Source: Acidimicrobiales bacterium (GTDB taxonomy: Bacteria; Actinomycetota; Acidimicrobiia; Acidimicrobiales; Iamiaceae). Taken from it: a DNA stretch of 39,508 nt. Position numbers and translations under genes: made by a program. The DNA lies in the NCBI GenBank assembly GCA_025463365.1, contig JAOBWM010000057.1, forward strand, positions 1-39,508. The letters run 5' to 3'. Shown piece by piece: positions 1 through 39,037 of the stretch (positions are counted from its first letter, which is position 1; each line of letters starts with the position of its first letter). A model generated the notes under the pieces. That model was not told the origin of the DNA. It made no database searches and saw nothing but the letters and a program-made list of their open reading frames with translations.

Positions 1-2496
1 GTGGCGTTCGGCATCGTGTTGCTGACCGGGTTCGACGGGTTCGAGGACCGCCTGACCGGGCTGCAGCACAGCCGCTTCGCCCCGGTCTTGTTCCTGCTGG
101 GGGTGGTGGCCTGGGGCCTGTTCGTGCTCCAGGACGCCGTGTTGATCGGCGCCCGGCGCGCCACGCTCGTCCCCGCCACCAACGCCGTGTTCTCCGTGCT
201 GAAGATCGCCCTGCTCCTCCTCTTCGCCGTGGTGGTGCGGCGCGAGTGGGGGGTCTTCCTCTCGTGGATCGTGCCGGGCGCGCTCGTCGCAGGTGGCGTC
301 AACCTGTGGCTGTTCCGCCGCGGGCTGGACCGTCCCACCGATGCCCCCGAGGAAGCAGCGACGCTGCGCCAGGTGCTGCGGTTCACCAGCGCCGAGTACG
401 TCGCCGCCCTGCTGTGGCAGACCGCGATCTACCTGACACCGCTGCTCGTCCTCGCTCGGCTCGGGGCCACCGCCAACGCCCACTACTACCTGCCGTCGCA
501 GATCGCCTACGCCCTGTACCTGGTCAGCAGCAACGTCACCGACGCGCTGGTGGCCGAGGGATCCGTCGCCCAGACGGAGCTCGGGCGCAAGGTGCGCCGC
601 ACGGGCGCGCAGGTGGCGCTGCTGATGATCCCGGGCGTGACCGTCCTGGCGCTCGGGGCGCCCGAGATCATGCGCATCTTCGGTGCCGGCTACGGCGGCG
701 AGGCGACGACGACGCTGCGCTTGCTGGCGCTCTCGGCCGCACCCAACGCCGTCAGCACGATGGTCATCGCCGTGGCCCACGTCCGCCAGCGCATGTGGCT
801 GGTGATCTACCTGCAGTCGATGATGGCCGCGCTCACCCTCGGAATCGGATGGGTGCTCCTCGGCCACCACGGCGTGGCCGGGGTGGCCGCCGCCTGGCTG
901 ATCGCCCAGAGCGTCACCGCGGTGGTGGCGGTCGCCATCACCCTCAAGGTCGAGCCGGGCATGAGCCGGAGCTTCCGCATCCAGGCGGTGCAGCGCGCGA
1001 CTGCCCTGCGGGCAGGTCTGGCCCGGCGTCGCGCCCTGCGCCTCGTGCGTTCGCGCCTCGTCGACGTGCCACGAGGCGCGTTGCCCGACGGGCCCGTCGG
1101 ACTCCTGGGCTTCCAGCACGACGTGCTGGTCGTCTCGGCCGGCACCGCGTCGATCCCCTTGGTCGTGCGGGTCGCGATCGGGCGCCAGGGGCGCCGCGGC
1201 ATCGCCTCGCATCGCAACCAGCTCCGGGCCCTGCGGTCCGATCCGCACCTGGCCGAGATCATGGGGCTGATCCCCGAGGTGCTCCTGGCCGATGGGGCCG
1301 CGAACTGGCTCGTCGAGACCGCGGTCCCGGGTTGCTCGGCCTCGGCGCTCGACGGGCCCGATGCCGAGGCTCGGGCGATGGTCGCGGCGATCGGCGCGTT
1401 GGAGCGGCTCCACGCCGCCACGGCCCACCAGCTGATCGCCGGCGCCGACCTCGTCGACCGTTGGGTGCACGAGCCCATCGCCGCCGTCGCCGAGGTCGTG
1501 CAGATCGAGCGGGCCGCCGAGGGGCTGCGGGCCCTGCATCGCCGGCTCACCAGCGAGCTGCTGGGCCGACCGATGTCCGTCGCCCGGCTGCACGGCGACC
1601 CCTCGTTCGACAACCTGTTGTTCTCGGCCGACGGTGGGTCGGTGACCGGGATGGTCGACTGGGAGAGCTCTGGCACCGGCCTCCCCGAGCTCGACATGAT
1701 CGCCCTCGTGCTCTCCCGGCGGGCCCGTTGCGGTGACGGAGAGATGGGCAGCGAGATCATCGACCTGCTCGCCAACGGCTGGTCCGCGGAGGAGCGCGAG
1801 CTGCTCGGGCCGGCATGGTCGGTGAACGCTCACATCCGGCCGACGACGCTCGTCCTGCTGGCATGGATCAACCACGTCGGCGCCAACCTGGCCAAGACCG
1901 AGCGGTACCAGGGCAACGGCTGGTGGGTCCGTCACAACGTGGTGCGGGTGCTGGAGGGCATCGCCGGCGACGGGGTCGGGGCTGCTGCCCTGCAACCGGA
2001 TCCGCTCGCCCCCGACGTCCCGCTCGCCGAGGCGATCCGCGGTCGGGCCCGGCCCGAGCCCGCGGCGCGCCGAGCTCCCGTCCGCCCTGCCCGCATGCGC
2101 GCTGTCGTCGCGCTGGTCGGGGGAGCGAGCTGGTTGGCCTACGCCCTCTCCGCCCCGATGGGCGTGCGCGTCGTCCTCGTGCTGGGTGCAGCCCTGGTGG
2201 CCCCGGCGGTGGCCGTCGGCCGTCTGCTCGGCGCCTCCGGCCCGTTGGTCCGCGGCGTCGTGGGCGCCACCGGTGCGGTCGCCCTCGACGTCGCGCTCGC
2301 CGAAGGGCTCCTGTACGCCCACCACTGGTCGCCGGGCGCGTTCTTGGTGGCCTCCAGCTCGATCGCCTGGGCGCTGTGCTGGGCCCGGCCCCGCCAGGAG
2401 CCCGTCGGCTCCGCTCGCGGCACCGCCCGCGTCGCGGGTCGCGTCGCCGGTCGCGTCGCCGGTCGGCGAGCTGAGCGCGTGGAGGTGCACCGGTGA
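1..2496 (+). CDS. Wzx-like polysaccharide flippase fused to an APH-like kinase domain (5' end missing)
   Basis: The first ~325 residues hold about nine hydrophobic segments typical of a MATE/Wzx-type polysaccharide exporter. Such proteins usually have 12-14 segments, so the N-terminus probably lies upstream and the GTG at base 1 is not a trusted start. Residues ~340-655 form an aminoglycoside phosphotransferase/choline kinase-like domain with catalytic HGD at 531-533, the metal-binding Asn at 538 and a second metal Asp at 553 (VDWE), so it looks active. About three more hydrophobic segments follow (~700-800), then a VAGR repeat and a basic tail. The next gene overlaps its stop (GTGA), indicating an operon. 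Likely role, inferred: export of a surface glycan intermediate coupled to phosphorylation of a small or lipid-linked substrate. The substrate cannot be told from sequence. Confidence 0.8.
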   Translation: MAFGIVLLTGFDGFEDRLTGLQHSRFAPVLFLLGVVAWGLFVLQDAVLIGARRATLVPATNAVFSVLKIALLLLFAVVVRREWGVFLSWIVPGALVAGGVNLWLFRRGLDRPTDAPEEAATLRQVLRFTSAEYVAALLWQTAIYLTPLLVLARLGATANAHYYLPSQIAYALYLVSSNVTDALVAEGSVAQTELGRKVRRTGAQVALLMIPGVTVLALGAPEIMRIFGAGYGGEATTTLRLLALSAAPNAVSTMVIAVAHVRQRMWLVIYLQSMMAALTLGIGWVLLGHHGVAGVAAAWLIAQSVTAVVAVAITLKVEPGMSRSFRIQAVQRATALRAGLARRRALRLVRSRLVDVPRGALPDGPVGLLGFQHDVLVVSAGTASIPLVVRVAIGRQGRRGIASHRNQLRALRSDPHLAEIMGLIPEVLLADGAANWLVETAVPGCSASALDGPDAEARAMVAAIGALERLHAATAHQLIAGADLVDRWVHEPIAAVAEVVQIERAAEGLRALHRRLTSELLGRPMSVARLHGDPSFDNLLFSADGGSVTGMVDWESSGTGLPELDMIALVLSRRARCGDGEMGSEIIDLLANGWSAEERELLGPAWSVNAHIRPTTLVLLAWINHVGANLAKTERYQGNGWWVRHNVVRVLEGIAGDGVGAAALQPDPLAPDVPLAEAIRGRARPEPAARRAPVRPARMRAVVALVGGASWLAYALSAPMGVRVVLVLGAALVAPAVAVGRLLGASGPLVRGVVGATGAVALDVALAEGLLYAHHWSPGAFLVASSSIAWALCWARPRQEPVGSARGTARVAGRVAGRVAGRRAERVEVHR
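2431..2466 (+). repeat. 12-bp tandem repeat, three copies, coding VAGR
   Basis: Three in-frame 12-base units (2431-2442, 2443-2454, 2455-2466), nearly identical, encode three VAGR units in the basic C-terminal tail of the flippase-kinase protein. This may be a slippage-prone tract that varies in copy number between strains. Confidence 0.75.
2481..2485 (+). promoter_or_regulatory. Shine-Dalgarno GGAGG for the second operon gene
   Basis: GGAGG lies seven bases before the GTG at 2493, inside the end of the upstream gene. It fixes that start and supports translational coupling through the GTGA overlap. Confidence 0.7.
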
Positions 2497-5048
2497 GCAC
2501 GGGCACGATCCCCGCGGGCGTCTTCCGGCCGGACCTGGGCCTGGTCCAGGGGACCGAGGTCTTCGCCGATCCCGGCCGCCGTGGCGACGGGTTGGCGGTG
2601 GCGCTGGAGTGGTTGCGGGCCGAGCAGTGGCCCGCCCTCGGGCACGCGATCGTCGGTCCGGCCGACGTGGCGCGCTGGGTCGACTCGGCCGCCGATGCGC
2701 TCGCGCCGACGATCCGGGGCCGGCGGGCTCGTGCCGGGCTCGCCGCGCTGCGGGCCCGCCTCAGCGACGAGCTGCTCGGCGAGACCGTGGTCGTGGGCGA
2801 CGTCCACGGCGAGATCCTTCCCGGCCGCTGGTGGTTCGCCGAGGGTGGCGACGAGATCGCCGCGGTCGACGGGTGGCTCCCGATGGGCCGGAACCTGCCG
2901 GAGGTCGACGAGGTGCTGCTCGTGCTGGCCGCGCGCAACGTGGCGCAGGGGCTGGACCCCGCGATGGTCACCGCCGCTGCGGTCGAGGTGTTGGAGCTGG
3001 GCTGGACCGACGCGGAGCGCGGCGCCCTCGGCTCGGCGACGTCGAGCAACCCCACGCTGTCACCGGGGTCGATCGTGCTGCTCGCGTGGCTGACGGCGGC
3101 GGCCGCCGGCGAGGGGCCGAGCGCGCTCGTTCAGGGACGATCGCACGAGCGGCGTGAGATCCGGTCGTTCCTCGAGACCCTGGCCCCCGAGGCCCGGGCA
3201 CCGCTCGTGGTCCGCGACGACCTGCTCGTGGTGGAGGCGCCCGCGGAGGGCATCGCTGCCGCGGACCGCACGGCCGCCGCGGTCGCGGCGGCTGCCGATC
3301 GTGCCGAGGATCGGGCGCGAGTCCGGCGAGGGTCGCGCCGGACCGTGGCGGGCCTCGCCATCGGATCGGTGCTGTGGCTCGTCGGCACCTGGCACCTCGA
3401 CCCGGGGGCGATGACCGACCTCGGGCTGCTCTCGATCCTGCGCCCGGAGGCCTACCTCGGGCTCGCGGTGCTCATCGCCACCTTCGCCGTCGAGGTCGTG
3501 TCGCCTCGGCCGACCACCTGGAGGCTGGCCGCGCCGCTCGCCACGGTCGTCCTCGTGCTGCACGGGACCCCGGCGTGGCTGTACGGGACGCTCCGGTACT
3601 CCTGGGCGTGGAAGCACCTCGGGATCCTCGACTACATCCACCGCCACGGCAGCGTCGACACGCACGCTGCCTCGCTCGACGTGTACCACAACTGGCCTGG
3701 CTTCTTCGCGGTCAACAGCGCTCTCACCGACCTGTTCGGGCTGCGCGACGCCGTCCAGTACGCGCGCTGGTGGCCCGTCCTGGCCAACCTCGCCGTGGTG
3801 CCGGCGCTGCTGTTCGTGTTCCGCGGGCTGAAGGGCGGCGACGACCGACGGACGGCGTGGACGGCGGTGGCGGTCTTCCTCGTCTCGAACTGGATCGGGC
3901 AGGACTACTTCTCACCGCAGTCGATGGGGTTCCTCCTCTACCTCGTGATCCTCGGGCTGGTCCTCCGCCACCTCCGCACCGGCGCGCCGACCGAGGGCGC
4001 CGCGGCCCGGAGATGGGGACTGGGCGTCGCCCTGCTCGCGACAGCGGCGATGGTCACGAGCCACCAGGTGTCGCCCGTCGTGCTGGTCGCGTCGTTGGCC
4101 GCGCTGGTGGTCCTGCGCCAAGCCCGGGCCAAGTGGTTCCTCGGTGCGGTGCTCGCCATGGTGGTGCTGTGGTCCGCGACCGGGGCACGGGTGTACATGA
4201 CCGGCAACGTCTCGTCGCTGTTCGAGGGGCTCGGCGAACCCGTGGCCAACGCCGACGGCAACCTGGTCGACCAGGGCCACCTCAGCGCCGATCAGGTCCT
4301 GGTGTCGACCATGGGTCGCCTGGCGCTCGTGGCGGTGGTCCTCCTGGCCGGGTTCGGACTGGTGCGGGCCTACCGGCGCCGGGCCGTCGATCTTGCTGCG
4401 ATCGCGCTCGCCGCGGCGCCTGGTGCGCTGCTGTTCGCGAACCGCTTCGGCGGCGAGATCGGGTTCCGCAGCTACCTGTTCGCCCTCCCGTTCCTGAGCT
4501 GGTTCGTCGCGCTGGGCCTCCGCCCGGGCCCGGGCAGCAGCCGGTCCACCCGCCGTCCGGCTCTGCGCGGCGTCGCCGTGTTCGTCGTGACCTCGGTGCT
4601 CCTGTCGGGATTCTTGTTCGGGTACTTCGGCAAGGACCAGTGGTACCGCTTCACGGGTGGCGAGGTCGCCGCCTCGGACTACGTGCTGACCGATGCGGTA
4701 CCCGGTTCGCTGCTCGTCACCGTCACGGCGAACTACCCCGGCCAGTGGAAGGACTACGAGAAGCTCACCTACGTGCCCATCGCCACCGAGCCGGTCGCCT
4801 CGCGGGCGCGGGTCCTGGCCGATCCCGTCGACGTGCTCGCCGGTTGGCTGTCGGAGAGCTCCTACGCGAAGGGGTACATCTTGATCACGCGCTCGCAGGA
4901 GCGCGAGGTCGAGGCGCTGGGGGCCCTTCCCGCCGGTTCGGTGGCGCGCCTGCGGCGGGCCCTCGAGGCATCGCCGCGCTTCCGGCTGGCGTTCGCCTCC
5001 GCTGACGCGCAGGTCTTCGAACTGGTCCCCGATGCCGGCGCCGGCTGA
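2493..5048 (+). CDS. Polytopic membrane protein (GT-C-like) with degenerate kinase-like N-terminal domain
   Basis: 851 residues. Residues ~10-245 align by eye with the C-lobe of the kinase in the preceding gene: HGE at 105-107 replaces HGD, Arg replaces the metal-binding Asn, a later VD and the LPE(V/L)D segment are kept, and no N-lobe is visible. It therefore looks like a pseudokinase remnant. From ~285 there are ten or more hydrophobic segments with a large loop rich in aromatic and charged residues (around DVYHNWPGFF and GQDYFSPQS), resembling polytopic GT-C-type glycosyltransferases or polymerases of exopolysaccharide clusters. A soluble tail of about 150 residues follows. It starts with GTG overlapping the upstream stop and ends 17 bases inside the next gene. 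Glycosyltransferase or polymerase function is inferred from topology only. Confidence 0.75.
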   Translation: MSTGTIPAGVFRPDLGLVQGTEVFADPGRRGDGLAVALEWLRAEQWPALGHAIVGPADVARWVDSAADALAPTIRGRRARAGLAALRARLSDELLGETVVVGDVHGEILPGRWWFAEGGDEIAAVDGWLPMGRNLPEVDEVLLVLAARNVAQGLDPAMVTAAAVEVLELGWTDAERGALGSATSSNPTLSPGSIVLLAWLTAAAAGEGPSALVQGRSHERREIRSFLETLAPEARAPLVVRDDLLVVEAPAEGIAAADRTAAAVAAAADRAEDRARVRRGSRRTVAGLAIGSVLWLVGTWHLDPGAMTDLGLLSILRPEAYLGLAVLIATFAVEVVSPRPTTWRLAAPLATVVLVLHGTPAWLYGTLRYSWAWKHLGILDYIHRHGSVDTHAASLDVYHNWPGFFAVNSALTDLFGLRDAVQYARWWPVLANLAVVPALLFVFRGLKGGDDRRTAWTAVAVFLVSNWIGQDYFSPQSMGFLLYLVILGLVLRHLRTGAPTEGAAARRWGLGVALLATAAMVTSHQVSPVVLVASLAALVVLRQARAKWFLGAVLAMVVLWSATGARVYMTGNVSSLFEGLGEPVANADGNLVDQGHLSADQVLVSTMGRLALVAVVLLAGFGLVRAYRRRAVDLAAIALAAAPGALLFANRFGGEIGFRSYLFALPFLSWFVALGLRPGPGSSRSTRRPALRGVAVFVVTSVLLSGFLFGYFGKDQWYRFTGGEVAASDYVLTDAVPGSLLVTVTANYPGQWKDYEKLTYVPIATEPVASRARVLADPVDVLAGWLSESSYAKGYILITRSQEREVEALGALPAGSVARLRRALEASPRFRLAFASADAQVFELVPDAGAG

Positions 5049-7767
5049 CAGGGCGGCCACCATCGAGGTGGTGGAGCGCGCGGGGTTGGTCGACTTGCTG
5101 GTGCCGTTCGAGGAGGCGCGCCGGCTGGCGGTCGCCGCGGCGTCGGACGGTGAGTGGTTGGATGCCACGCTGCTCGTGGCCGGGTGCTCGCAGGTGGTGG
5201 AGGATCACATCCACCGCAGCGAGGGACTGCTGGACCGGCTCGCCGTGCACGTCACCGGGAACCAAGCGGCGCTCGGTGCTCCGGCCCAGGCCTTGGACCA
5301 CGGAGCCGCCGCCGTGCGAGCCGCGCACCGTGCCCGCCGCCGCGTCGCTGCGCTGCTCCCGTCGCGCGATGCGCTCCTCGAGCTGGCCGTCGACCTGGCG
5401 GCAGCCGCCCTCGGCGGGCCAGCGGTCGAGGACCTGGCTCGCCGGACGAGCGTGGCGCTGGGCCCGGCCGCGTCGTGGCCGGCCACGATCGCCGAGCACC
5501 CACCGCGCCTTCCGTCGTGCTTCCGCAGCTTCGACCAGCACCCGGCTGACGTGGTCTCGCTCGTGGCCCGCTACGCGGACCGCCACCCGGATCGGTCCGA
5601 GCCGGCGCTCGTGGCCGGCATCCGCACCTCGGGCTCCTACCTCGGCCCGCTCGCGGTCGCCGAGCTCCGCCGCCTCGGGTACGAGAGCAGGCTCGTCACG
5701 TTGCGCGCCGGCGAGCGACTCGACCAGGGCCAGGCGGCCGCCGCCGAGGCGTGCGTCGGCGGTCACGTCGTCGTCATCGACGATCCGCCCGTGAGTGGCG
5801 GCACGGTCCGCGATTGCATCCGCACCCTCGTGCGGGCCGGCTTCGGTCCCGACCAGGTCGTGCTGTTGCTGGCGCTGCCCGAAGGGTGGACGCTGGCGCC
5901 GTTCCTCGACCCATACGAGCAGGTCGTGCTGCCCGGCGCCGAGTGGCACGTGCGGACCGCCTTCGATGCGGCGAACCTCGAAGGGGTCGCGGCGCGGTTG
6001 CTGGACCGGTCCGGGCGCACGTTCGTCGGCCCCCTCGCGCCGGCGGACGACCCGGTCGGAGCGGCGCCGGGTGGTGCACCACGCACGCCGCGCGAGCACC
6101 GCCGGGCCGCCTTCGCCGTGCGCGTCGCCGGCCCGGGCGAAGGTGCCGAGATCGATGCCACCCTCCTCGTGCAGGGCACGGGCGTCGGCCTGTTCGGCCG
6201 CCACGATGCCGCGGTGGCGTCGCAGCTCGGCGGCCTCGTCCCGGATGTCCTCGGCGTGGACGACGGACTCCTCTACCAGCTCGTGGGACGCGCCGGACCG
6301 CGGGTGGACCCGGCGATCGATCCCGCCGGAGCGGCCGCCTACGTGCTCGCTCGCCACCGGGCGCTTCCCGTCGCGGTCGATCGCTCGGAGGCCATGCGCG
6401 GCCGGAAGGCGGCGTGGGAGGTGGCGGCCATGATCGTCGGCGCCGCGCTCGGCCGGGCCGACCTGGCCGTGCGGATCCCCGTCGTCGAGCCGCTCGTGCG
6501 GTCGCTGCTTCGCGTGGCCGAGCCCTCGGTGATCGACGGCCGGATGACGGTCGATCGGTGGCTGCCGGCGCTCGGAGGCGACGGCATCGTGAAGGCCGAC
6601 CACGCTGACGGTGCGTTCTCGAACCGCGACCTCTGGAGCTACGACCCTGTGGCCGACCTGGCCGCGATCGGCGACGAGCTCGGTCTTCCCCGCGAGGTGC
6701 TCGCCGAGTGGCTCGCCCAGGGTGGGACACCGGTGGCGCCGTCGCGCTGGTTGCTGCACCGGTTCGTGCATGCCTGGGACCAGCACCGCCTCGGCGCGCT
6801 GGCCCAGCCCGAGTACGGACGGCGCGTCGGCGCCGCGCTGGTCGACCACGTCGGAGCGCTGTTCCTGGCCGATCTCCCGACGCCCTCAGCCGAGACCTCG
6901 GGCCCGTGGTGCGTCGTCGACGTCGACGGCGTGCTCGAGACCGGCGTGCTCCCGGGCGCGTCGGCGCCAGGCCGCGCCGGCGGCCTCGTGCTGCGCTCGT
7001 TGGCCACCCACGGGTTCCGCGTCGTCCCGGCCACCGGCCGCAGCGTGGCCGAGGTCGCGACCCGGGTGGCCGCCTGGGACCTGGCCGCCGGCATCGCCGA
7101 GTACGGCACCGCGCTGGTGATCGGGTCCGAGATCGTCGACCTCCGGTCGGAGGCCGCGGCCCAGCAGGTGGATCGCGCCCGAGCCTGGCTGGAGGAGCAG
7201 CCCGGCATCCTCGTGGACCCGGGCCACCGCCACGCGCTTCGGGCCTGGCGGACCACCGGCTCCGGCGGACGAGGCCCCCTCACGCCGGCGGACGTCACTG
7301 GGGCCCGGGAGGCTGCGGGCGAACCGCTCGTGGCGGTCCCGGGCGACGACCAGACCGACCTCGTGCCCGCCGGCTGCAGCAAGGAGGTGGCCGTTCGTGC
7401 GCTGCTCGCCCGCCTCGATCCCGATCGGGCCGGGCTCGCCCGTCCGCTTGCGCTCGCCGCGGGCGACGGTCCGGCCGACCTCGGTCTCTTGGGCCTCGCC
7501 GAGCTGGCGGTCGTCCCCGGTCACGCCGAAGCCGGTATCCGCGCCCTCGCCACGACCCCGTCGAAGGCTGCCTACCAAGCGGGATTGGCCGAGGGCGTCG
7601 CGTCCCTCGTGGGCCATGCACCAGGTGCGTGCCCGACGTGCCGAGTCGATCTCGAGCCTGCTGCGTCGGCCCTGCTCGCCGCGCTCTCGGTGCGTGAGGC
7701 AGGACCGAGGGGGATCGCGCCGCGCCTGGCCGGTCTCGTCCGCTCGGTCGTCGCCCTCAGGAGGTGA
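5032..7767 (+). CDS. Three-part protein: phosphoribosyltransferase, kinase-like middle, HAD phosphatase
   Basis: 911 residues, no membrane segments. The N-terminal ~330 residues include a type I phosphoribosyltransferase PRPP loop at 247-258 (hydrophobic strand, then DDPPVSGGT). The middle (~360-600) carries HADGAFSN at 524-531 followed by YDPVADLA, similar in layout to the catalytic loop and Asp of APH-like kinases; this assignment is weak. The C-terminal third is a HAD phosphatase of Cof/sugar-phosphatase type: DVD at 630-632, a Thr in the ATGRS segment, Lys 784 and GDGPAD at 811-816, so all four HAD motifs look intact. A CPTC pair sits at 867-870. It overlaps the upstream gene by 17 bases and is probably co-translated. 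PRTase plus HAD suggests making and dephosphorylating a ribosyl-phosphate compound, perhaps a donor or modifier for the surface polymer; this is inference. Confidence 0.8.
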   Translation: MPAPADRAATIEVVERAGLVDLLVPFEEARRLAVAAASDGEWLDATLLVAGCSQVVEDHIHRSEGLLDRLAVHVTGNQAALGAPAQALDHGAAAVRAAHRARRRVAALLPSRDALLELAVDLAAAALGGPAVEDLARRTSVALGPAASWPATIAEHPPRLPSCFRSFDQHPADVVSLVARYADRHPDRSEPALVAGIRTSGSYLGPLAVAELRRLGYESRLVTLRAGERLDQGQAAAAEACVGGHVVVIDDPPVSGGTVRDCIRTLVRAGFGPDQVVLLLALPEGWTLAPFLDPYEQVVLPGAEWHVRTAFDAANLEGVAARLLDRSGRTFVGPLAPADDPVGAAPGGAPRTPREHRRAAFAVRVAGPGEGAEIDATLLVQGTGVGLFGRHDAAVASQLGGLVPDVLGVDDGLLYQLVGRAGPRVDPAIDPAGAAAYVLARHRALPVAVDRSEAMRGRKAAWEVAAMIVGAALGRADLAVRIPVVEPLVRSLLRVAEPSVIDGRMTVDRWLPALGGDGIVKADHADGAFSNRDLWSYDPVADLAAIGDELGLPREVLAEWLAQGGTPVAPSRWLLHRFVHAWDQHRLGALAQPEYGRRVGAALVDHVGALFLADLPTPSAETSGPWCVVDVDGVLETGVLPGASAPGRAGGLVLRSLATHGFRVVPATGRSVAEVATRVAAWDLAAGIAEYGTALVIGSEIVDLRSEAAAQQVDRARAWLEEQPGILVDPGHRHALRAWRTTGSGGRGPLTPADVTGAREAAGEPLVAVPGDDQTDLVPAGCSKEVAVRALLARLDPDRAGLARPLALAAGDGPADLGLLGLAELAVVPGHAEAGIRALATTPSKAAYQAGLAEGVASLVGHAPGACPTCRVDLEPAASALLAALSVREAGPRGIAPRLAGLVRSVVALRR

Positions 7768-10129
7768 AGATGTTGTCGAAGCTGGCGGCGTCGGTGGTGG
7801 TGACGTTGGCGCCCGCCGTGATCCGCATCCGCACCGCGGTGAGGGCGAACGGGTCGGGGGTCGACGTGAGGACCGTCCACGTGCCCGGCGCCGTGGCTCC
7901 CGAGGCGTACTCCCAGTAGAGCCGTCCGGCTGCCTCGCGGAAGCGCAGCCACTGCATCTGCGCCGGCACGTAGGTCGGCCACGACGGCGTCAGGTTGCTC
8001 TCCGGTCCTCCGTTGGCGACCCAGGCGGTGAGGCTGCCGCTGGCGAAGAAGAACGAGGCGCTGTGCGTGGCGTCCAGCCACAGGTACACCGACGTCTCCC
8101 CGTAGGTGGAGCCGCCGACACCGCCGTTCGCCGGCCGCACCACCTGCACCTGCAGCGAGCGACCGGTCTGGTCGTGGGTCGCCGTGCTCTGCAGGGTGCC
8201 GCTCGTCCACGAGCCGGCGGGGTGCGTGATCACGAGCCGCCCACCGCTGGGCACCACCGTCGACCCGTTGGTGATGGTGGTCCACGTCGAGGAGAGCGCT
8301 GACGTGTCGAAGGTGTCGGCTGGGCCGACGCCCGTCGAAGGTGGCGGGGGCGGGGCCGGGGGCGGCGGGGTCGTCGTCGTCGGCAGGGTGGTGATCAGCT
8401 GCTCGATGGACGCGTCCACCGCGGTCGCGTTCGAGAGCGTCAGGTAGTACTGGTTGCCGGTGCCGAGGGTGAACGTGTTGCGGCCGGAGCTGTCGATGGC
8501 GTTGGTGCCCGGGCCGACCTCTCGGAGTGCGGTGTCGCTCGGGCGGATGGCGTCGTACACGGCGACGAGGTCGTAGGAGTAGATCCAGTTGTTCGGGCCG
8601 ACGAAGGCCTCGTAGGCGACGCGCACCGGCGAGGTGGAGGGGTGGGTGCGCGAGATGGTGTCGCCCGTGTGGATCGCATCGCCGACCTCGTAGCCGGCCC
8701 AGACGATCTTGGTGGGCCACCCCGAGGAGACCTGCTGCGCCGCGGCCGGATCGCCGACGAGGTTGTTCTCGCCGGACCGACTCGGGTAGCCGCCACCCAT
8801 GATCACCAGGCGCTTCACCTTGCGCGCCACGAGGTCCTGCCCGCCGAGCGGGCTGGTGGCGTCACCGGGGGAGGCGAGGAGCGCAGCCAGGTTCCCGTTG
8901 TAGCCCGCCTCCACGACGACGACCGATCCGTCGGCCTGGGCGGCGAGCGCTTGGCGGAACACCGTGACCGCCGATGCCGGCGTCGGCGTGGAGGCCGGCG
9001 CGAGCGCGGCGCACGGCTTCACGAAGTCCACGGTGTTGACGTCGGTACCCGTGTTCGGCATCGACGTCCCGATGGGCACGGACGCCGACCCGTAGTAGGC
9101 GGCCACCGCGAGGGCACACCGCCACGAGTTGACGGCCACGTTGGGTCGGCTCGTCCGGGTGTTGAGGCCGATGGCCACGACCTTGGCCTCGCCGCGCAGC
9201 TGGAGGCCGAACGCGGTGGCGAGCGCCCCCACGTCGTCGGCATCGCTGAACAGGTCGGTGTCGACGATCAGGGGCGTCGGCCCTGACCCCGACGGGGTCG
9301 TGGTGGTCGTGGTGGTCGGCGGGGTCGTCGTCGTGGGCGATGTGGTCGTGGTCGTTGTGGTCGTCGTGGCGGCTGGGCGCAACGCGGTCAGGACCGCGAC
9401 CGTCTCGTCCTGCGCCGTCGAGGGCTTGGAGCTCTTGGCGCCCGATGCGCCGGCGGCCGGCTGCACCTGTTGGTCGAGGCTGCCCGAGCGGAACGCGTCG
9501 GCGTCCGCGACATCACCGAGCTCCCCCATCCCGCTCGGCACGGACCAGGTGGAGGCTCGCTTGGCCTTCTTGGTCGACCCAGCGAACGCGGCCACGAGGA
9601 GCGAGCCCGGTTGCGTGGTCGTCACCGATGGTGTCGACGCCGAGCCGGCGGCGGCGGTGGTGTTGCCCGCCGATGCCATCACGGGGGTCACCGTGTCGAC
9701 GCCACCGAAGGCGGCGAGGAAGGCGACGCCTCCGATCGACCGGTCGGTCGACCACGAGTAGGCGCTCTCGCCGGCGACGAACGTGTGGGTGTAGGTGGCG
9801 ATGGCGAGGGTCGACCCGCGGTTCGTGCGCGACGCGAGCACCCACCCGTTCGGCGCGGTGATCGTCGGCTGCGCGGTGGCGCCGAGCCCGAGCGAGGCGA
9901 GCAGCACGTCTCCCGACGCGGCGCCGACCGGTGCCGACAGCCGGATCGTCCGGGTCGATGCTGATCGGTAGGTCACCGTCGTCGCACCCCGGGACGCGAT
10001 GGTGGTCGCCGCCCCTGCGGTGGTCGCAGTGGTGGGCGAACCGGCCGCCGCCAGGCCCAGCGCCACCACGACGGCGACCAGGAACACGACCACATGGCGT
10101 GACCTCAGTGCTGCCGTCGAACCCCTCAC
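7757..10129 (-). CDS. Secreted nucleoside-hydrolase-like multidomain protein
   Basis: The GTG at 10129 gives 790 residues beginning with a clean signal peptide (basic start, ~18 hydrophobic residues, Ala-rich cleavage zone). An upstream in-frame GTG at 10207 would add 26 residues but sits before the likely transcription start. After the signal comes a ~210-residue beta-rich domain, a Thr-rich linker, then an inosine/uridine nucleoside hydrolase-like domain from ~287: calcium-site DTD at 290-292 followed by DADD, then the EAGYNGNLAALL and VKRLVIMGGG segments. A Pro-rich linker leads to a ~180-residue C-terminal domain resembling a concanavalin/LamG-like sandwich. It probably acts outside the cell on nucleosides or another N-glycoside. 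It ends tail-to-tail with the operon above, overlapping by 11 bases. Confidence 0.75.
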   Translation of the reverse strand: MRGSTAALRSRHVVVFLVAVVVALGLAAAGSPTTATTAGAATTIASRGATTVTYRSASTRTIRLSAPVGAASGDVLLASLGLGATAQPTITAPNGWVLASRTNRGSTLAIATYTHTFVAGESAYSWSTDRSIGGVAFLAAFGGVDTVTPVMASAGNTTAAAGSASTPSVTTTQPGSLLVAAFAGSTKKAKRASTWSVPSGMGELGDVADADAFRSGSLDQQVQPAAGASGAKSSKPSTAQDETVAVLTALRPAATTTTTTTTTSPTTTTPPTTTTTTTPSGSGPTPLIVDTDLFSDADDVGALATAFGLQLRGEAKVVAIGLNTRTSRPNVAVNSWRCALAVAAYYGSASVPIGTSMPNTGTDVNTVDFVKPCAALAPASTPTPASAVTVFRQALAAQADGSVVVVEAGYNGNLAALLASPGDATSPLGGQDLVARKVKRLVIMGGGYPSRSGENNLVGDPAAAQQVSSGWPTKIVWAGYEVGDAIHTGDTISRTHPSTSPVRVAYEAFVGPNNWIYSYDLVAVYDAIRPSDTALREVGPGTNAIDSSGRNTFTLGTGNQYYLTLSNATAVDASIEQLITTLPTTTTPPPPAPPPPPSTGVGPADTFDTSALSSTWTTITNGSTVVPSGGRLVITHPAGSWTSGTLQSTATHDQTGRSLQVQVVRPANGGVGGSTYGETSVYLWLDATHSASFFFASGSLTAWVANGGPESNLTPSWPTYVPAQMQWLRFREAAGRLYWEYASGATAPGTWTVLTSTPDPFALTAVRMRITAGANVTTTDAASFDNIFTS
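9297..9369 (-). repeat. Low-complexity Thr-rich linker tract
   Basis: Reiterated GTGGTCGT-like DNA on the plus strand encodes a Thr-rich linker between the N-terminal beta domain and the hydrolase domain of the secreted protein. This is typical of flexible, possibly glycosylated, linkers in secreted actinobacterial proteins. Confidence 0.65.
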
Positions 10130-10209
10130 GCCTTCCGTCTCCCTCTCCCCAGTCGGCCGACGCGCCTTGTGAGAGCGGGGAAAGGCCCCCAGCCGACGGT
10201 CGACCACGC

Positions 10210-10234: not shown

Positions 10235-11230
10235 TTACTCGGGAGGGTCGTCGAGCACGCCGCCGAGCGCCGGGAACACCCTGGCGACCTTGGCGGTGAG
10301 GTAGTCGCCGTAGGTGCCGGACCAGTCGTGGACGCTCGCTCCGTCCCAGCGGCGGGGCGCGTCGTCGACCGGTGCATCGTCGGCGAGCGGCACCGGCAGG
10401 ATCTCGGCACCCCAACCAGGGTCGAAGAAGAAGGGGAACGACAGCCGATCACGGGTGCCGCCAGCGTGGCGGACGCGGTGCGGCGTGGATCGGTAGCGCC
10501 CACTGGTCATGCGGTCGAGCATGTCGCCGAGGTTGACCACGAACGTCCCGTCGACGGCCGGCACGTCGATCCACCCGCCGGGCCCGCGCACCTGGAGCCC
10601 GGGCGTGCCGTCGTGGGCGAGGATCGTCAGGAGGCCGTAGTCGGTGTGCTCGGCCACGCCCCACTCGTCGTCGCCCGCGGGCCGGGCCGGATAGCGGAAG
10701 ATGCGGAAGAGCACGGTGGGATCGGCGGTCAGGTTGCGGTCGAACCAGCCGGCGTCCAGGCCGAGCGCCACGCCCACGTCTCGCGCCAGGAGGTGGCCGA
10801 GCGCGGTCATGGCGTCCATCCAGGCGAGCACGGCAGGCCGCAGGTCAGGTACGGATGCCGGGAACAGGTTGGGCCCGTGCAGCGGTGTCCCGGCCTGGAC
10901 CCGGGGATCGTCGGCGCCCAGCTCGGCGCCGAAGTAGATCCCCTCCTTGTGGTCGGGCCGGCCCGACGTCAGCTCGCCGCCCTCGGGGAACCAGCCGCGC
11001 CACGCCCGTCCGCCGCGGGCCATCGCGATCGCTGCCTTCTCGGATTCGGGACGGGCGAAGAACGTGCGGGCGACGGCATCGAGCCGGGGGAGGAGCGTGG
11101 GATCCACGCCGTGACCAGACACGAGGAAGAAGCCTGTGGCCCGGCAGGCCCGGTCGATCGCCTCGGGGGCGTGGCGGTCGGTGAGGTCGATCACCGGGAG
11201 GTCGTCCACGTCGAGCAGTCTGCCCGTCAC
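10235..11230 (-). CDS. 2OG-Fe(II) oxygenase, isopenicillin N synthase-like family
   Basis: 331 residues from the GTG at 11230. The N-terminus (LPVIDL) and the segment [10 protein letters not shown] match the DIOX_N domain. The double-stranded beta-helix holds the iron ligands HTD (in [12 protein letters not shown]) and the distal His (STPHRV), and the 2-oxoglutarate-binding Arg and Ser lie in RLSFPFFF. All key residues are present, so it should be an active non-heme iron hydroxylase or desaturase of unknown substrate. A longer open frame extends to 11641 but runs into the divergent gene and lacks family similarity, so I reject it. It is divergent from the membrane protein at 11265 with 34 bases between starts. 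Confidence 0.85.
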
Positions 11231-11252
11231 CTGGGGGCAGGCGTTCGTGGGC

Positions 11253-11258
11253 AATGAT
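11253..11258 (+). promoter_or_regulatory. Candidate -10 (AATGAT) for a leaderless transcript
   Basis: AATGAT ends six bases before the GTG at 11265, the spacing seen at many other starts here. Its first base departs from TAnnnT. The 34-base gap also has to serve the opposite gene. Confidence 0.35.
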
Positions 11259-11264
11259 CTGCAG

Positions 11265-13739
11265 GTGAGCTCGGCCGTGGTGGGCGTGGACGAGGCGGTG
11301 GCCCCGGGATCGACCGCGTCGCACGAACACGACGACGACGACCTGCTGTCGGGGCCCGCGTGGGGCCGCCATCCGCTGGACATCGTCCGTCTCGTGGTGG
11401 CGGGCGTCGCCCTGGTGGCGGGCGCCGCGCTTGCCCTGCGCCACCCCACCACCGTCCGCTCCGTGTCGGTGAACCTCGTGGACCTCGTGGCCGACCTCCC
11501 GGGCTGGGTCCGCGAGGTCCTCGTCGGATCGACCCAGCTGCTCGCCCTGCTCGTTCCGGCGGTCATGGCCATCTTGTTGGTCCGGACGCCGCGGATGTTG
11601 GCCACCGCGTTCGGTGCCGCCTTCGCGGCGGCCTTCGCCATGACGATGCTTCAGGGTCGCCTCGACGATGCCGTGCCCCATCGGGTGGTGCTGGCCAACG
11701 CCCGGGCCTCCTGGATCGCCGGCGCCGCCTTCCCGTCGGGCGCGTACCTCGCCGGCTTCACGGCCGTGGTCGTCGTGCTCGGACCGGTGCTCTCGCGGGG
11801 CTGGCGCCGGGCCGCCGTCGTCGGCGTCGGCATCGCCGCTCTCGGCCGGATCCTCACGGCGGTGGCGGTGCCGCTCAACATCGAGGTGACGCTCGCCCTC
11901 GGTGCCGTCGTCGGCTCCGCGACGCTCGCCATCTTCGGCTCGCCCCGGCGCACGGCCAGCCGGCGAGCGGTCCTCGCCGGGCTCACGTCGGCGGGCTTCC
12001 CGGCGGTCGCCATCGACCCGCTCGACGTCGGCGCGGATCACGGCCAGACGTTCGAGGCGGTCACCGCCGAGGGCCACCGGGCCTTCGTCAAGCTGCTCGG
12101 CCGCGACGAACGATCGGCCGACCTCCTGTTCCGCTCGTTGCGCGCGTTGCGCGTGAAGGATCTCGACGACGAGCGACCGAGCTGGTCGCCAGCCGATCTC
12201 GTCGAGCACGAGGCCTTCACCTCGCTGCTCGCCGCCCGTCGCGGGGTCGTCGTGCCGGCCCTGGAGGCGGTCGGCACCACGGCGGGTGGCGACGGGATCC
12301 TCGCCGTCGAGCTGGTCGACGGGGAGCCGCTCGACGCGATGGATCCCGAGGAGATCACCGACCAGCTCCTCGACGAGGCCTGGGCCCAGCTCCGGCTCCT
12401 ACGCCGCCAGGGCATCGCCCACCGGTGGTTCACCGCCACGCACCTGCTCGTCGGCCAGGCCCGCACCGCGTCCGAGGATGAGGCCCCCTCCGATCCGGCG
12501 CCGGCGACGATCACCGTGATCGACTTCCGCTGGGCGGTCCACCAGGCCGACCCGGATCAGCTGGCAGCCGACGTCGCCATGCTCGTGGTCAGCCTGGCGC
12601 TCCTCGTGGGCGCGGAGCGGGCCGTGGCCTCGGCCGCCCGCTCGCTCGACCCGCCCGAGCTCGCCGCGGCCCTCCCGCTCGTGCAGCCCCTCGCCCTGCC
12701 CGACGACCTGCGCGACGCCATCAAGGGCCAGGCCCCGATCCTGCCGCTCGTCCGCAAGCGGCTCCAGGTGGCCGCAGGCAACGTGCCCTACAAGCTCGCC
12801 GACATCGAGCGGATCAGCGTTCGCCAGCTCGTGTCGCTCGTCGGCGGTGTGGTCGCCAGCTACACGCTGCTGTCGTTCGCCTCGAACTGGGCGGACATCG
12901 TCGCCGCGCTCCGGTCCGTCTCGGCAACCGACGCACCGATCCTCGTCATCCTCGCCGCGGTGCCCTACGTGGCGGGGGCGGCCACGTTCGCGTCCGTGGT
13001 TCCGAAGCCGCTGCCGTTCGCGGAGGTCGTCCGCCTGATGGTCGGCCAGTCCTTCCTCAACCGGTTCACGCCCGCCAACGCCGGCGGCATGGCCCTTCGC
13101 ATCCGGTACCTGCAGAAGCGAGGCGTCGACCTCGGCGGCGCCGCGGCCGGCGTGGCCCTCACCAGTGTTGCCAGCGCCATCGGCCAGGTGGTCGTGTTGG
13201 CCACCTTCGCGGCCTGGGCCGGATCGGGCGGCGCCTTCCGCTTCTCGCTGCCGCAGGCCAGCTCCATCGCGGTGGGTGCCGCGGTGGTCGCGGTGCTCGG
13301 TGGGCTGGTGTGGTTCACGCCGGTCGGGCGGCGCGTGGTCGCCCGTCGCGTCGAGACGACGGTGAGGTCGGTGTGGAAGACGCTCCGGGCGTTGTCGCAC
13401 GAGCCCGGCCGCTTCGTCACGCTGTTCGCCACCACGCTGCTCGGCAAGATCGCGGTGATCGCTGCGTTCGCAGCGAGCTGCCGGGCCCTCGATCTCGGCA
13501 TCGCCTTCCCGAAGCTCGGGCTCTTGTACCTGACCGCATCGTCGTTGGCGGCGGCGGCACCGACCCCGGGCGGAGTGGGCGCGGTCGAAGCGGCGCTGAC
13601 CGCGGCGCTGACCGGCGCCGGGGCCCCGCCGGCCGAGGCGCTGTCCGCGGTGTTCCTGTTCCGTCTCGCCACCTACTGGCTGCCCGTACCGTTCGGGTGG
13701 TTCGCGCTCCGCCGCCTCCAGCGATCGATCCTCGCTTGA
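11265..13739 (+). CDS. PAP2-like / pseudokinase / MprF-type flippase fusion membrane protein
   Basis: 824 residues from the GTG at 11265. Residues ~20-220 are membrane segments resembling a PAP2 phosphatase, but the usual PSGH is PSGA (157-160) and the SR..H..D motif is degraded, so catalysis is unlikely. Residues ~230-500 resemble an ABC1/RIO/APH-type kinase. The catalytic loop reads HRW (386-388) instead of HRD/HGD, the metal Asn is His 393, and DFG is DFR (423-425), so it looks like a pseudokinase. The C-terminal ~300 residues are the lysylphosphatidylglycerol synthase membrane region (YbhN/UPF0104), with [13 protein letters not shown] and [11 protein letters not shown] signature segments, the flippase half of MprF. 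Likely role, inferred: lipid translocation controlled by the kinase-like module. The start was chosen because the longer frame overlaps the divergent oxygenase. Confidence 0.8.
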
Positions 13740-19903: not shown

Positions 19904-21286
19904 ATGCATTGCGCGCCGCGGGCCCCGCCATCGCTCAAGGTGACGGCGGCATCCGTCGATGCCGTGGAGATCAGCGACTTCACCCGGGCCGATGTCGCCC
20001 ACCTCTTGCGCCGAGCGGGGTTCGGCGGCACCACCGTCGAGGTCGACGCGCTCGCCGGCGAGCCATCGTGGGTCGCCGTGGTCGACGCGGTGCTCGACAC
20101 CTCGGCCAACCCCCCGGACACCATCCCGGCCCTCGTCGACGACACCGATGACGAGTACTACGGCGCCTGGGTGGCCGCCGTGCACTACTGGCTCGACCGG
20201 ATGGCCACCACGCCCACCCCGCTGGTCGAGAAGATCACGCTCTTCTGGCACGGGGTCCTCACGTCGTCGACCGAAGGGCCGCTCACCCGCCTGGTCTTCC
20301 GCCAGGTCAAGACCTATCGCTCCCTCGGCCTCGGGGACATCCACGCCCTCATGCAGGCGATGGCGATCGACCCGGCGATGCTCGACTACCTCGACAACGA
20401 CGAGAACGTCGCCGAGCAACCCAACGAGAACTTCGCCCGCGAGCTCATGGAGCTGTTCACGCTCGGCAACGCCATGTTCGCCGAGTCCGACGTGATCGCC
20501 ATGGCCCGAGCGTGGACCGGGCACGGCACGACCGACGACGGGGAGCACTACGAGTTCCACGCCGGCGACCACGACAGCGGGACCAAGACCCTCTTCGGCA
20601 TCACGAAGAACTGGAACGGGCCCGCCGCGATCACCGAGATCGTGCGGGGCGTGAAGCAGCCGGTGTGCGCCCGCTACCTCGCTGGTCGCCTGTGGTCGTT
20701 CTTCGCCTACCCGAACCCGTCGGCCACGCTCCTCGACGACCTCCAGGCCGCACTGATCGCCGCCGGCATGAACGTGAAGGCGTTCCTGCGGGTCGCGTTC
20801 CTCCGGCCGGAGTTCCGCCTCGCCACCACGCGAACCGCCCTGGTGCGCAGCCCGATCGAGTGGATCGTCGCGATCATGCGAGCCACCGGCATGGCCTCGG
20901 CCGACCTGCACCCCGAATGGTGGATGGACCGGCTCGGCCAGACCATGTACCAGCCGCCCAACGTGTCGGGCTGGAAGCAGAACGGTGCGTGGATCTCGAG
21001 TTCGGCCCAGTGGGCGAAGGGGTCCTACGCCGACTCGGTGCGTTGGCTCGCGACCGACCCTGATGCGGAGCAGGGGCCTCACCTGTTCGCCGGCATCGAC
21101 GCGTCGACCCCTGCGGTCGCCGCCCAGATCGCGCTCGACCGCTTCGGCGTCGACGACCCCTCCCCGCTGACCCGCCAGCAGCTCCAGGCCTTCGTCGCCC
21201 GGGAACAGGCCGCGGACCGCGGGTGGGCCGTGGCGCCCGGCCTCGTCGCGCTGTGCATGCTCAGCCCCGACTTCCAGCTGGCCTAG
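19904..21286 (+). CDS. DUF1800 family protein
   Basis: 460 residues. The N-terminal segment DVAHLLRRAGFG, the core EKITLFWHGVLT, the EQPNENFARELMELFTLG motif and the C-terminal MYQPPNVSGWK are hallmarks of DUF1800. The function is unknown. Members are nearly always encoded beside a DUF1501 protein, as here (stop eight bases before the next ATG), suggesting an exported complex. There is no clear signal peptide, so it may be carried out with its Tat-dependent partner. The start could be ATG 19904 or in-frame GTG 19940; neither has a good ribosome-binding site, and the conserved domain begins after both. Confidence 0.88.
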   Translation: MHCAPRAPPSLKVTAASVDAVEISDFTRADVAHLLRRAGFGGTTVEVDALAGEPSWVAVVDAVLDTSANPPDTIPALVDDTDDEYYGAWVAAVHYWLDRMATTPTPLVEKITLFWHGVLTSSTEGPLTRLVFRQVKTYRSLGLGDIHALMQAMAIDPAMLDYLDNDENVAEQPNENFARELMELFTLGNAMFAESDVIAMARAWTGHGTTDDGEHYEFHAGDHDSGTKTLFGITKNWNGPAAITEIVRGVKQPVCARYLAGRLWSFFAYPNPSATLLDDLQAALIAAGMNVKAFLRVAFLRPEFRLATTRTALVRSPIEWIVAIMRATGMASADLHPEWWMDRLGQTMYQPPNVSGWKQNGAWISSSAQWAKGSYADSVRWLATDPDAEQGPHLFAGIDASTPAVAAQIALDRFGVDDPSPLTRQQLQAFVAREQAADRGWAVAPGLVALCMLSPDFQLA

Positions 21287-21294
21287 GACGACCG

Positions 21295-38800: not shown

Positions 38801-39037
38801 GTACTCCACGTGACCGCCCTGGTAGGAGCTGACGGCCACGCCCTGCACGTCCTCTTGGACGCACGCCGTCACGACTTCGTCGACCGAGCGGTTGTGGCCG
38901 AGGTGGACGACCTCCACACCCTGGCTCTGCAGGATGCGCCGCATGATGTTGATCGAGGCGTCGTGGCCGTCGAACAGGCTGGCGGCGGTGACGAACCGGA
39001 CGGGGTTCGCGGGACGGTGCAGGTCGGGCGTGGTCAC
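35801..39037 (-). CDS. icmF: Fused isobutyryl-CoA mutase (IcmF)
   Basis: 1078 residues from the GTG at 39037, the usual IcmF length. The N-terminal B12-binding domain has DGHD with the cobalt-ligand His 25 and HLGHNRSV. The middle is a MeaB-like GTPase: P-loop GTGGSGKSS (Lys 208), an ETP switch segment and NKFDRRGG. The C-terminal half is the large acyl-CoA mutase TIM barrel. IcmF interconverts isobutyryl-CoA and n-butyryl-CoA with adenosyl-B12, and its GTPase part guards cofactor loading. It serves branched-chain amino acid and fatty acid metabolism. A MarR-type gene diverges from it and probably regulates it. The frame extends to 39289, but that part lies over the regulator gene. Confidence 0.93.
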   Translation of the reverse strand: MTTPDLHRPANPVRFVTAASLFDGHDASINIMRRILQSQGVEVVHLGHNRSVDEVVTACVQEDVQGVAVSSYQGGHVEYFQFLVDLLRERGAGHVQVFGGGGGVIVKSEIDQLQAYGVTRIFSPHDGQSLGLPGMINTLVAWADLDLTIELPPSLDGLLGGDDAALARVITALENDRMPSVQVAELRAAADSRRVPVLGLTGTGGSGKSSITDELVRRFRLDHEDKLKVAVIAIDPTRRKGGGALLGDRIRMNSIEPGIVFFRSLATRTAGTVVPEPTDDIVAAAKAWGADLVIVETPVIGQGDAAIVDHVDLSLYVMTPEFGAASQLEKIDMLDFADVVAINKFDRRGGEDALRDVRRQMVRNAESFGSAPDEMAVYGTVASRFNDDGVTGLYQELHRRLTDLGLEGSGGALPRVDTKVSSADTAIVPANRARYLADIAAAVRTHHATTSDQMAVARELQQVRAVQELVEATGGDTAAAKLPELEAEAAGRLSDESRTLLDGWPATIDDYSGDEHVTQVRGKDLTTQLTKLSLSGSHIPRVALPRYTDHGELLRFLRSENLPGRFPFTAGVFPFKRDGERPARMFAGEGDAFRTNTRFHLLSEGQPATRLSTAFDSVTLYGFDPDVRPDIYGKVGNSGVSIATLDDMEVLFRGFDLCDPSTSVSMTINGPAPTILAMFLNTAIDQRLEQFPDEDPAEVRAWVLANVRGTVQADILKEDQGQNTCIFSTEFALGMMADIAEWFVAEQVRNFYSVSISGYHIAEAGANPISQLAFTLANGFTYVEAYLARGMSIDDFAPNLSFFFSNGMDPEYAVLGRVARRIWAVAMRDRYGASERSQKLKYHVQTSGRSLHAQEMSFNDIRTTLQALIAIYDNCNSLHTNAYDEAVTTPTAESVRRALAIQLVINEEWGLAMNENPNQGSFIIDELTDLVESAVLAEFDRIAERGGVLGAMETGYQRGRIQDESLLYETRKHDGTLPIIGVNTFLAPTPEGDDPGHEHEEIELQRSTDEEKQSQLRRLAEFHERHNADRPAALDRLRAAALAGDNLFEVLMDAVRCCSLGEITHTLFEVGGRYRRNV

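Follow-up and report, generated by a model that had tools for sequence, protein, structure and literature searches.

What joins a flippase to a kinase, a second membrane protein to the remnant of a kinase, and both of them to a phosphoribosyltransferase that carries its own phosphatase? The question is raised by three large overlapping genes (genes 1 to 3) at the beginning of a 39,508-nucleotide stretch of DNA from an Acidimicrobiales bacterium (assembly GCA_025463365.1, contig JAOBWM010000057.1). This stretch is the entire contig, C81 in our numbering, and is referred to below as the window. The genome is a high-GC actinobacterial one, and the nearest relative with a name that was found for it is a metagenome-assembled genome of the Ilumatobacteraceae. 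The system to which the three genes belong is real, conserved and functionally coherent. It is a variant of phosphoribosyl pyrophosphate (PRPP)-dependent glycan ribosylation, and the link between its kinase and its flippase, which has evolved repeatedly, is its most unusual feature. With moderate confidence, we take the whole system to be the export end of a ribose-containing surface glycan operon, in which a kinase stands beside the flippase and gene 3 adds ribofuranose.

The operon and the domains of its last three products

An earlier note on this DNA, made from the sequence alone, had placed the beginning of gene 1 at base 1 and had treated the three genes as a unit. Base 1, however, is the end of the contig and not a start codon. 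The first 127 bases of the window are matched exactly by the end of contig C218 in reverse complement, and gene 1 runs on into that contig in frame, giving a full length of 937 amino acids with a single stop at its end. The joining of C218 to C81 is supported by a related genome, G010, in which eight genes share one contig in the same order. The three window genes are the final three of a co-directional eight-gene operon that begins on C218 and encodes, in order, a two-domain family 2 glycosyltransferase (GT2, 634 amino acids), a GT2-like protein (422 amino acids), a polysaccharide deacetylase, a FemAB/GNAT protein, a GH16 protein and the products of genes 1, 2 and 3. Successive genes overlap by 4, 1, 4, 4, 16, 4 and 17 bases. 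The two overlaps within the window are as the earlier note had read them, the glycan cluster that it expected upstream is present as the first five genes on C218, and the surface-polymer setting that it proposed agrees with the GT2, deacetylase, GH16 and flippase genes of a single operon. Codon-usage scoring prefers the three called frames over long antisense open reading frames. The scoring was trained on these same genes, and the independent support comes from G010, where the three genes recur in unchanged order with 54-58% identity.

The flippase part of gene 1 is recognized by a profile built from short flippases of related loci (Table 1). In Pfam, the window piece has no flippase match, and PF01943 (Polysacc_synt) matches three of the 18 members of the flippase family that were scanned (best E 1.4e-7). 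The domain that follows has the HGDxxxxN catalytic loop and the metal-binding Asp of the APH family (PF01636). In an alignment of 25 kinases, which includes 11 of 20 separate kinases (the other nine were dropped), H531, D533, N538 and D553 are invariant, and the N-lobe Lys is found in 22 sequences, its place being taken by Arg in the window, L067 and L108. The C-terminal membrane segment of gene 1 is related to a small membrane protein, family F11/f24, which is a stand-alone gene in other clusters.

Gene 2 begins with a second piece of an APH kinase, which is recognized by the cluster's own profile. Its N-lobe is missing and HGEILPGR replaces HGDxxxxN, so that the motif of an active APH is not present. 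In the window, G010 and G015 the loop begins with HGE, HGE and HGS, respectively, and all three have Arg at the Asn position. The model of this part is of low confidence, and its kinship to kinases comes from the sequence profile rather than from the fold. In the kinase tree, the gene 2 pieces of these three genomes form one clade (support 100/99) adjoining the gene 1 kinases of the window and G010, and the two groups together with G022 are supported at 100/97. Because of this adjacency, the gene 2 pseudokinases look like a duplicate within the gene 1 kinase family. The kinase piece of L072 is also a gene 2 pseudokinase.

The rest of gene 2 has a GT-C glycosyltransferase fold. Its top structural matches are ArnT, oligosaccharyltransferases, AftD and AftA, with Foldseek E values of 2.9e-6 for ArnT and 2.1e-5 for AftD. 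VIA-align gave a Z of 22.6 both to the yeast oligosaccharyltransferase (429 residues aligned, root-mean-square deviation 4.7) and to AglB (445 residues, 4.3). Pfam has no match for gene 2 at E up to 1, nor for the GT-C proteins of L084 and L067 at E up to 0.1.

Gene 3 combines a type-I phosphoribosyltransferase (PRTase), a middle domain and a HAD phosphatase. A profile of the first part (A6) matched PyrR (E 2.1e-4) and OPRT (E 3.1e-3) in the PDB and then almost only other PRTases among the best 60 of 63 matches, and Foldseek found HGPRT with probability 1.00 and E 6.6e-3. The type-I fold and the PRPP motif are both present, the two Pro residues within the motif (DDPP) being unusual. In an alignment of 45 gene 3 relatives, from which L115, the second of the PRTase genes in L111 and L071, which is nearly identical to L070, were left out, the residues R198-T-S-G, Y203, R225, D250 and P253 of the PRTase and D630, D632, G669, R670 and D816 of the HAD domain are kept in every row, and K784 and D812 of the latter in 44. 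The best HAD matches are of the HAD-IIB/Cof type, and the modelled cap (residues 687-779) alternates strands and helices. Gene 3 has no clear transmembrane pattern, only a single hydrophobic peak, and no UbiA match.

The middle domain is modelled with confidence. Its profile had no matches in the PDB at E up to 10, and the eight Pfam families that it touched were each found in only one of 44 members, none consistently. A kinase fold was considered for it and is not supported: hhalign against the 25 kinases gave a probability of 0.2 percent, about the same as a control with the PRTase part, a fold search on the domain alone not having been made. The earlier note had seen kinase-like segments in all three proteins. 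This holds for gene 1 and, as a C-lobe only, for gene 2, whereas gene 3 has no meaningful kinase match. Ter-type PRTase/HAD operons for nucleoside metabolites were also considered and set aside, as PRTase_2, TRSP and PELOTA had no match in the six gene 3 proteins scanned.

Table 1. Features of the window end of the operon and nucleoside hydrolase genes close to gene 3 (window positions unless a locus is named; pLDDT, predicted local distance difference test; pTM, predicted template modelling score)
Feature	Position	Strand	Details
Gene 1: flippase, APH kinase, small membrane domain	1..2496	+	5' end outside window; 57% identical to G010:C35
Flippase part, residues 1-330 of window piece	1..990	+	E 1.1e-78 to profile of 16 short flippases from related loci
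APH-type kinase domain, residues about 345-660	1033..1980	+	PF01636 E 1.6e-12; catalytic loop HGDPSFDN and VDW intact
C-terminal membrane segment	2095..2388	+	Related to small membrane protein F11/f24; E 5.8e-6 in pooled protein set, 7.3e-9 in six-piece set
GTGA stop/start overlap, genes 1/2	2493..2496	+	Gene 2 GTG start at 2493 inside gene 1 stop
Gene 2, 851 amino acids: pseudokinase C-lobe and GT-C glycosyltransferase	2493..5048	+	
Degenerate APH C-lobe, residues 17-204	2541..3104	+	E 2.2e-18 to the cluster's own APH profile, positions 127-319
GT-C domain, residues about 265-851	3285..5045	+	Model mostly pLDDT over 90
17-base overlap, genes 2/3	5032..5048	+	Gene 3 ATG at 5032, gene 2 end at 5048
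Gene 3, 911 amino acids: PRTase, middle domain, HAD	5032..7767	+	Model pLDDT 91.3, pTM 0.92
Type-I PRTase domain, residues 156-332	5497..6027	+	RTSGxY loop; DDPPxTG PRPP motif
Middle domain, residues 338-622 (285 residues)	6043..6897	+	Confident model; D502, K521, D538 in 45/45
HAD-IIB phosphatase domain, residues 623-867	6898..7632	+	Z 23.3 to 1wr8_A (222 aligned, root-mean-square deviation 2.6)
Divergent IU_nuc_hydro (nucleoside hydrolase) protein, N-terminal hydrophobic stretch	7757..10207	-	PF01156 E 3.1e-12; converges on operon
Divergent nucleoside hydrolase beside gene 3	L067:12733-15165		
Divergent nucleoside hydrolase beside gene 3	L048:6769-9114		
Divergent nucleoside hydrolase beside gene 3	L074:17248-20202		
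Divergent nucleoside hydrolase beside gene 3	L077:7715-9424		

Gene 3 loci and the kinase-flippase association

Searches for the gene 3 family yielded 56 loci, which according to the record titles are 42 actinobacterial, 10 Chloroflexota, two Dormibacterota, one labelled Bacillota and one unidentified; some of them coincide with the records G010, G015, G037, G125 and G144. Within up to 10 kb on each side of gene 3, a GT2 enzyme is encoded at 32 loci, a flippase at 29, a deacetylase at 27 and a GT-C protein at 21 (L085 was left out of the GT-C alignment). Flippase and GT-C are present together at 20 of the 56. The co-occurrence of the three parts that the earlier note had asked about is thus found, but not the order: flippase, GT-C, gene 3 is the arrangement at one of these 20 loci (L067, which is G010), and gene 3, flippase-kinase, GT-C is that at seven. 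In G015, gene 3 and the kinase piece of gene 2 are divergently oriented. Within the genus, two of 12 genomes (G000 and G010) contain gene 3. We conclude that the parts belong together, with a free layout and a patchy distribution. In a phylum-wide sample of 396 genomes, the gene 3 profile was found in two and the GT-C profile in 22; these counts were made at E up to 1e-20 from two scored candidates per genome, which makes misses likely. Two Streptomyces-size genomes, L156 and L157, were rejected as carriers, as their short match covers the HAD part only and belongs to an ordinary Cof-type protein. In L078, L087, L098, L103, L112, L114 and L121, the gene 3 family is found in other glycan-type neighbourhoods, which have no kinase, flippase family member or GT-C.

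The kinase follows the flippase closely, as the earlier note had read from gene 1. An APH kinase is present at 26 of the 29 gene 3 loci with a flippase, fused to it at 14 (13 by profile, and L068, whose kinase the profile missed, from Pfam) and separate at 12, with no locus showing both. A kinase-bearing gene lies directly beside gene 3 on the same strand at 24 of the 56 loci, with a 4-base overlap at 10. On the kinase tree (39 rows), the fused state needs seven switches to or from a separate kinase, at least six of which are forced by well-supported branches.

Of the flippase clusters that have no gene 3, 5 of 24 contain a kinase, compared with 26 of 29 of those that have it (Fisher p 5.7e-7, to be read as a guide only, with related genomes in both groups). 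The 5 of 24 consist of 3 of 19 clusters and 2 of 5 relatives (G022 and G046 with a kinase; G051, G044 and G040 without). This comparison omits G001, G011 and G082, which are on contigs of 4-5 kb, and L151, which has no flippase; when these four are included, the count becomes 5 of 28 (p 3.4e-8). The association of the kinase with gene 3 clusters is therefore strong but not strict.

Further fusions were found among the same parts. Flippase, kinase and GT-C form a single reading frame in G022, flippase and GT-C are fused without a kinase in G040 (L061:8898-11948) and in the Streptomyces-size genomes L158-L162, GT2 and GT-C in L070, L102 (by Pfam) and L120 (by eye), and kinase, GT2 and GT-C in L085. 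Together with the flippase-kinase fusion, these natural fusions point to one physical complex. A separate observation on the flippases is a flippase-like protein of 1293 amino acids (L168:455-4336, minus strand), whose C-terminal end looks, by eye, to be of thioesterase/lipase type.

Neighbouring genes

The operon is met from the opposite strand by a divergent nucleoside hydrolase gene, whose product is probably secreted. It is outside the operon and is perhaps linked to it by function. Members of this divergent family are found beside the cluster in the window, G010, G015, L074 and L077. Among nine genomes of the same taxonomic family that were searched, the divergent hydrolase is present in all three with gene 3 and in none of the six without; three of these six contain a nucleoside hydrolase of the ordinary type, the other three none at all. 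The association, drawn from two lineages, fits a ribosyl-containing product.

Three other window genes are of separate interest. One (11136-13739, plus strand) encodes 867 amino acids with LPG_synthase_TM at residues 571-854 and no Pfam match in the first 570. At 19940-23274 (plus strand), a DUF1800 gene precedes a DUF1501 gene, in which DUF4214 repeats are present as well. Finally, B12-binding, MeaB and methylmalonyl-CoA mutase domains are united in a single protein (35801-39037, minus strand), which we take to resemble the fused isobutyryl-CoA mutase IcmF.

A possible function and its alternatives

Incorporation of ribofuranose from PRPP in two steps, by a phosphoribosyltransferase and then a HAD phosphatase, is established for Gram-negative polysaccharides (PMC11127046, PMC10299916, PMC12096443). 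If the present operon works in a similar way, the GT2 enzymes would assemble a lipid-linked glycan in the cytoplasm, the PRTase domain of gene 3 would move ribofuranose-5-phosphate from PRPP onto it, and the HAD domain would strip the 5-phosphate from the transferred ribose. The APH kinase of gene 1 would then work at the membrane, beside the flippase part that would move the glycan across, and phosphorylate either this glycan or its carrier. The GT-C protein of gene 2 would add or transfer a sugar outside, and its pseudokinase, a degenerate copy of the gene 1 kinase, perhaps holds the two membrane proteins together. The earlier note, which knew of no pathway with this combination, had proposed a ribosyl-phosphate-derived building block and an export coupled to phosphorylation. 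The former fits the PRPP-type transferase and the phosphatase of gene 3, and the latter may follow from the kinase's place at the flippase. The hypothesis thus survives in outline, but ribose incorporation from PRPP as such has already been described (PMC11127046, PMC10299916).

The closest parallels to gene 3 are the dual-domain ribofuranosyltransferases, namely the gPRT-PRP enzymes, Bcs3 (CriT-CrpP) of Haemophilus influenzae type b and Cj1432 of Campylobacter jejuni. Like gene 3, they unite a PRPP-type transferase and a HAD phosphatase in one polypeptide encoded in glycan clusters, with ribose-5-phosphate transfer followed by dephosphorylation as the predicted reaction (PMC11127046, PMC10299916, PMC12096443). 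However, the gene 3 transferase is a type-I PRTase similar to PyrR and OPRT, its phosphatase is a HAD-IIB protein with an alpha/beta cap, and a domain of 285 residues separates the two, whereas the gPRT-PRP phosphatases have an alpha-helical cap (PMC11127046, PMC10299916), which gene 3 does not. The order also differs, as the phosphatase precedes the transferase in Bcs3 and Cj1432 and is C-terminal in gene 3. No chain named gPRT or CriT is among the PDB matches listed for gene 3 (the best 60 of 69 and the best 60 of 63), which is weak evidence. Because the phosphatase type and the arrangement are different, we propose that gene 3 works like the gPRT-PRP enzymes and do not claim membership in their family. 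In butirosin, O-ribosylation of a sugar-like acceptor is carried out by a PRTase, BtrL, plus a phosphatase, BtrP. Unlike gene 3, these are separate proteins, and the product is a small-molecule antibiotic.

A different use of the same parts would be for gene 3 to charge polyprenyl phosphate. The resulting polyprenyl-phosphate-ribose-5-phosphate would be dephosphorylated, flipped and used as a donor by the GT-C of gene 2. This is how the three-component pentofuranose system is defined, in which PRPP-dependent charging with a phosphatase (PPPRS-PRP), a flippase and a GT-C of family GT136 are encoded together, as PRPP-derived ribose, flippase and GT-C are here (PMC11127046). Gene 2 resembles GT-C enzymes that use lipid-linked donors, AftD and AftA among them, and shares the GT-C fold with that system, the comparison being one of fold and not of GT136 membership; gene 3 keeps company with both a flippase and a GT-C at the 20 loci mentioned above. 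The known charging enzymes, however, are UbiA-type membrane proteins, and gene 3 encodes instead a PRTase that lacks a clear transmembrane pattern. The pentofuranose system has a flippase of four helices and no kinase (PMC11127046), whereas the flippase found here is large and belongs with those that act on lipid-linked oligosaccharides. Gene 3 is also found with neither GT-C nor flippase nearby. Hence, we consider polyprenyl charging unlikely, although it is the best of the alternatives.

Somewhat less probable still is that the PRTase and the kinase make a small non-sugar decoration for the glycan, nucleoside-like or a phosphoalcohol, which the HAD domain trims. Type-I PRTases mostly act on bases, the best profile matches of gene 3 are PyrR and OPRT, and the kinases of the APH fold include choline/ethanolamine kinase (a weak PDB match, E 0.15). 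The recurrent neighbours, however, include no conserved nucleotidyltransferase or ligase gene, and the relatives of HAD-IIB phosphatases are mainly phosphatases of sugar phosphates.

The kinase domains could also regulate or scaffold the flippase and leave the glycan unmodified. Mycobacterial MviN, a flippase of lipid-linked precursors, carries a C-terminal pseudokinase resembling protein kinases and is a known case of such a pair. The kinase piece of gene 2 is catalytically degenerate and has Arg at the same position in three genomes, and Arg replaces the usual Lys in the window kinase. On the other hand, the gene 1 domain belongs to the APH family rather than to the protein kinases, its catalytic loop is intact as in all 25 aligned kinases, 22 of which also have the Lys, and at 12 of the 29 flippase loci the kinase is a separate gene. 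We judge a purely regulatory role improbable, slightly more so than a decoration. That unrelated genes overlap by chance is barely credible: gene 3 is indeed restricted to two of 12 genomes of the genus, whose ancestor therefore did not have the set, but the genes keep turning up together across Actinomycetota and Chloroflexota and have been fused repeatedly, which contradicts a chance overlap.

A glycan kinase acting on a ribofuranose-containing polymer has a precedent in Klebsiella pneumoniae O7, where ORF6 consists of a GT2, a methyltransferase and an AmiN-like kinase that resembles APH (PMC11231755). As in the kinase-GT2-GT-C protein of L085, the kinase is fused to a GT2. The O7 kinase, however, terminates chains for an ABC exporter (PMC11231755), whereas the kinase of the present clusters is either part of the flippase protein or encoded alongside it. 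A methyltransferase domain such as that of ORF6 was not detected in the kinase fusions studied here.

Several observations weigh against reading the operon as the export end of a ribose-containing glycan pathway. Activity, substrate and glycan structure are all inferred from genes, and the kinase may have a regulatory or structural role instead, the more so as that of the window carries Arg for Lys. No relation of gene 3 to the characterized ribosyl enzymes was detected, its phosphatase being of HAD-IIB and not of the alpha-helical-cap type, and its middle domain has no recognized relative. The join to C218 rests on the 127-base overlap and the parallel in G010. Seventeen of the 56 loci, including some on short contigs, have neither flippase nor GT-C nor kinase near gene 3, which also speaks against the three genes as a fixed unit. 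Gene 3 occurs with a flippase and no kinase in L095 and L104, and in L094, whose contig ends there; conversely, a kinase without gene 3 is found in G022, G046 and three further clusters, so that the two are separable. A strict link is also at odds with G233, a genome of the phylum-wide sample in which gene 3 is represented just by its HAD side (profile positions 569-890; no Pfam match in the guessed reading frame) and a flippase/GT-C cluster without a kinase lies on another contig.

A bolder form of our reading is that the cluster is a phosphorylation-licensed glycan exporter, in which a glycan kinase, repeatedly wired into the flippase or encoded next to it, and a class of ribofuranosyltransferase that depends on PRPP and evolved separately form one machine with GT2 and GT-C enzymes in two phyla. 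We put this forward tentatively, as possible rather than probable. The literature searched, mostly without subscription papers, contains no recognizable account of this cluster or of any fusion between a flippase and a kinase. If the proposal is true, it would provide a testable case of lipid-linked glycan export that depends on a flippase-attached kinase. It would also mean that there is a second, structurally different route for ribofuranose into bacterial polymers, which occurs in soil actinobacteria (Streptomyces, Kitasatospora, Amycolatopsis, Pseudonocardia and Rhodococcus) and in Chloroflexota.

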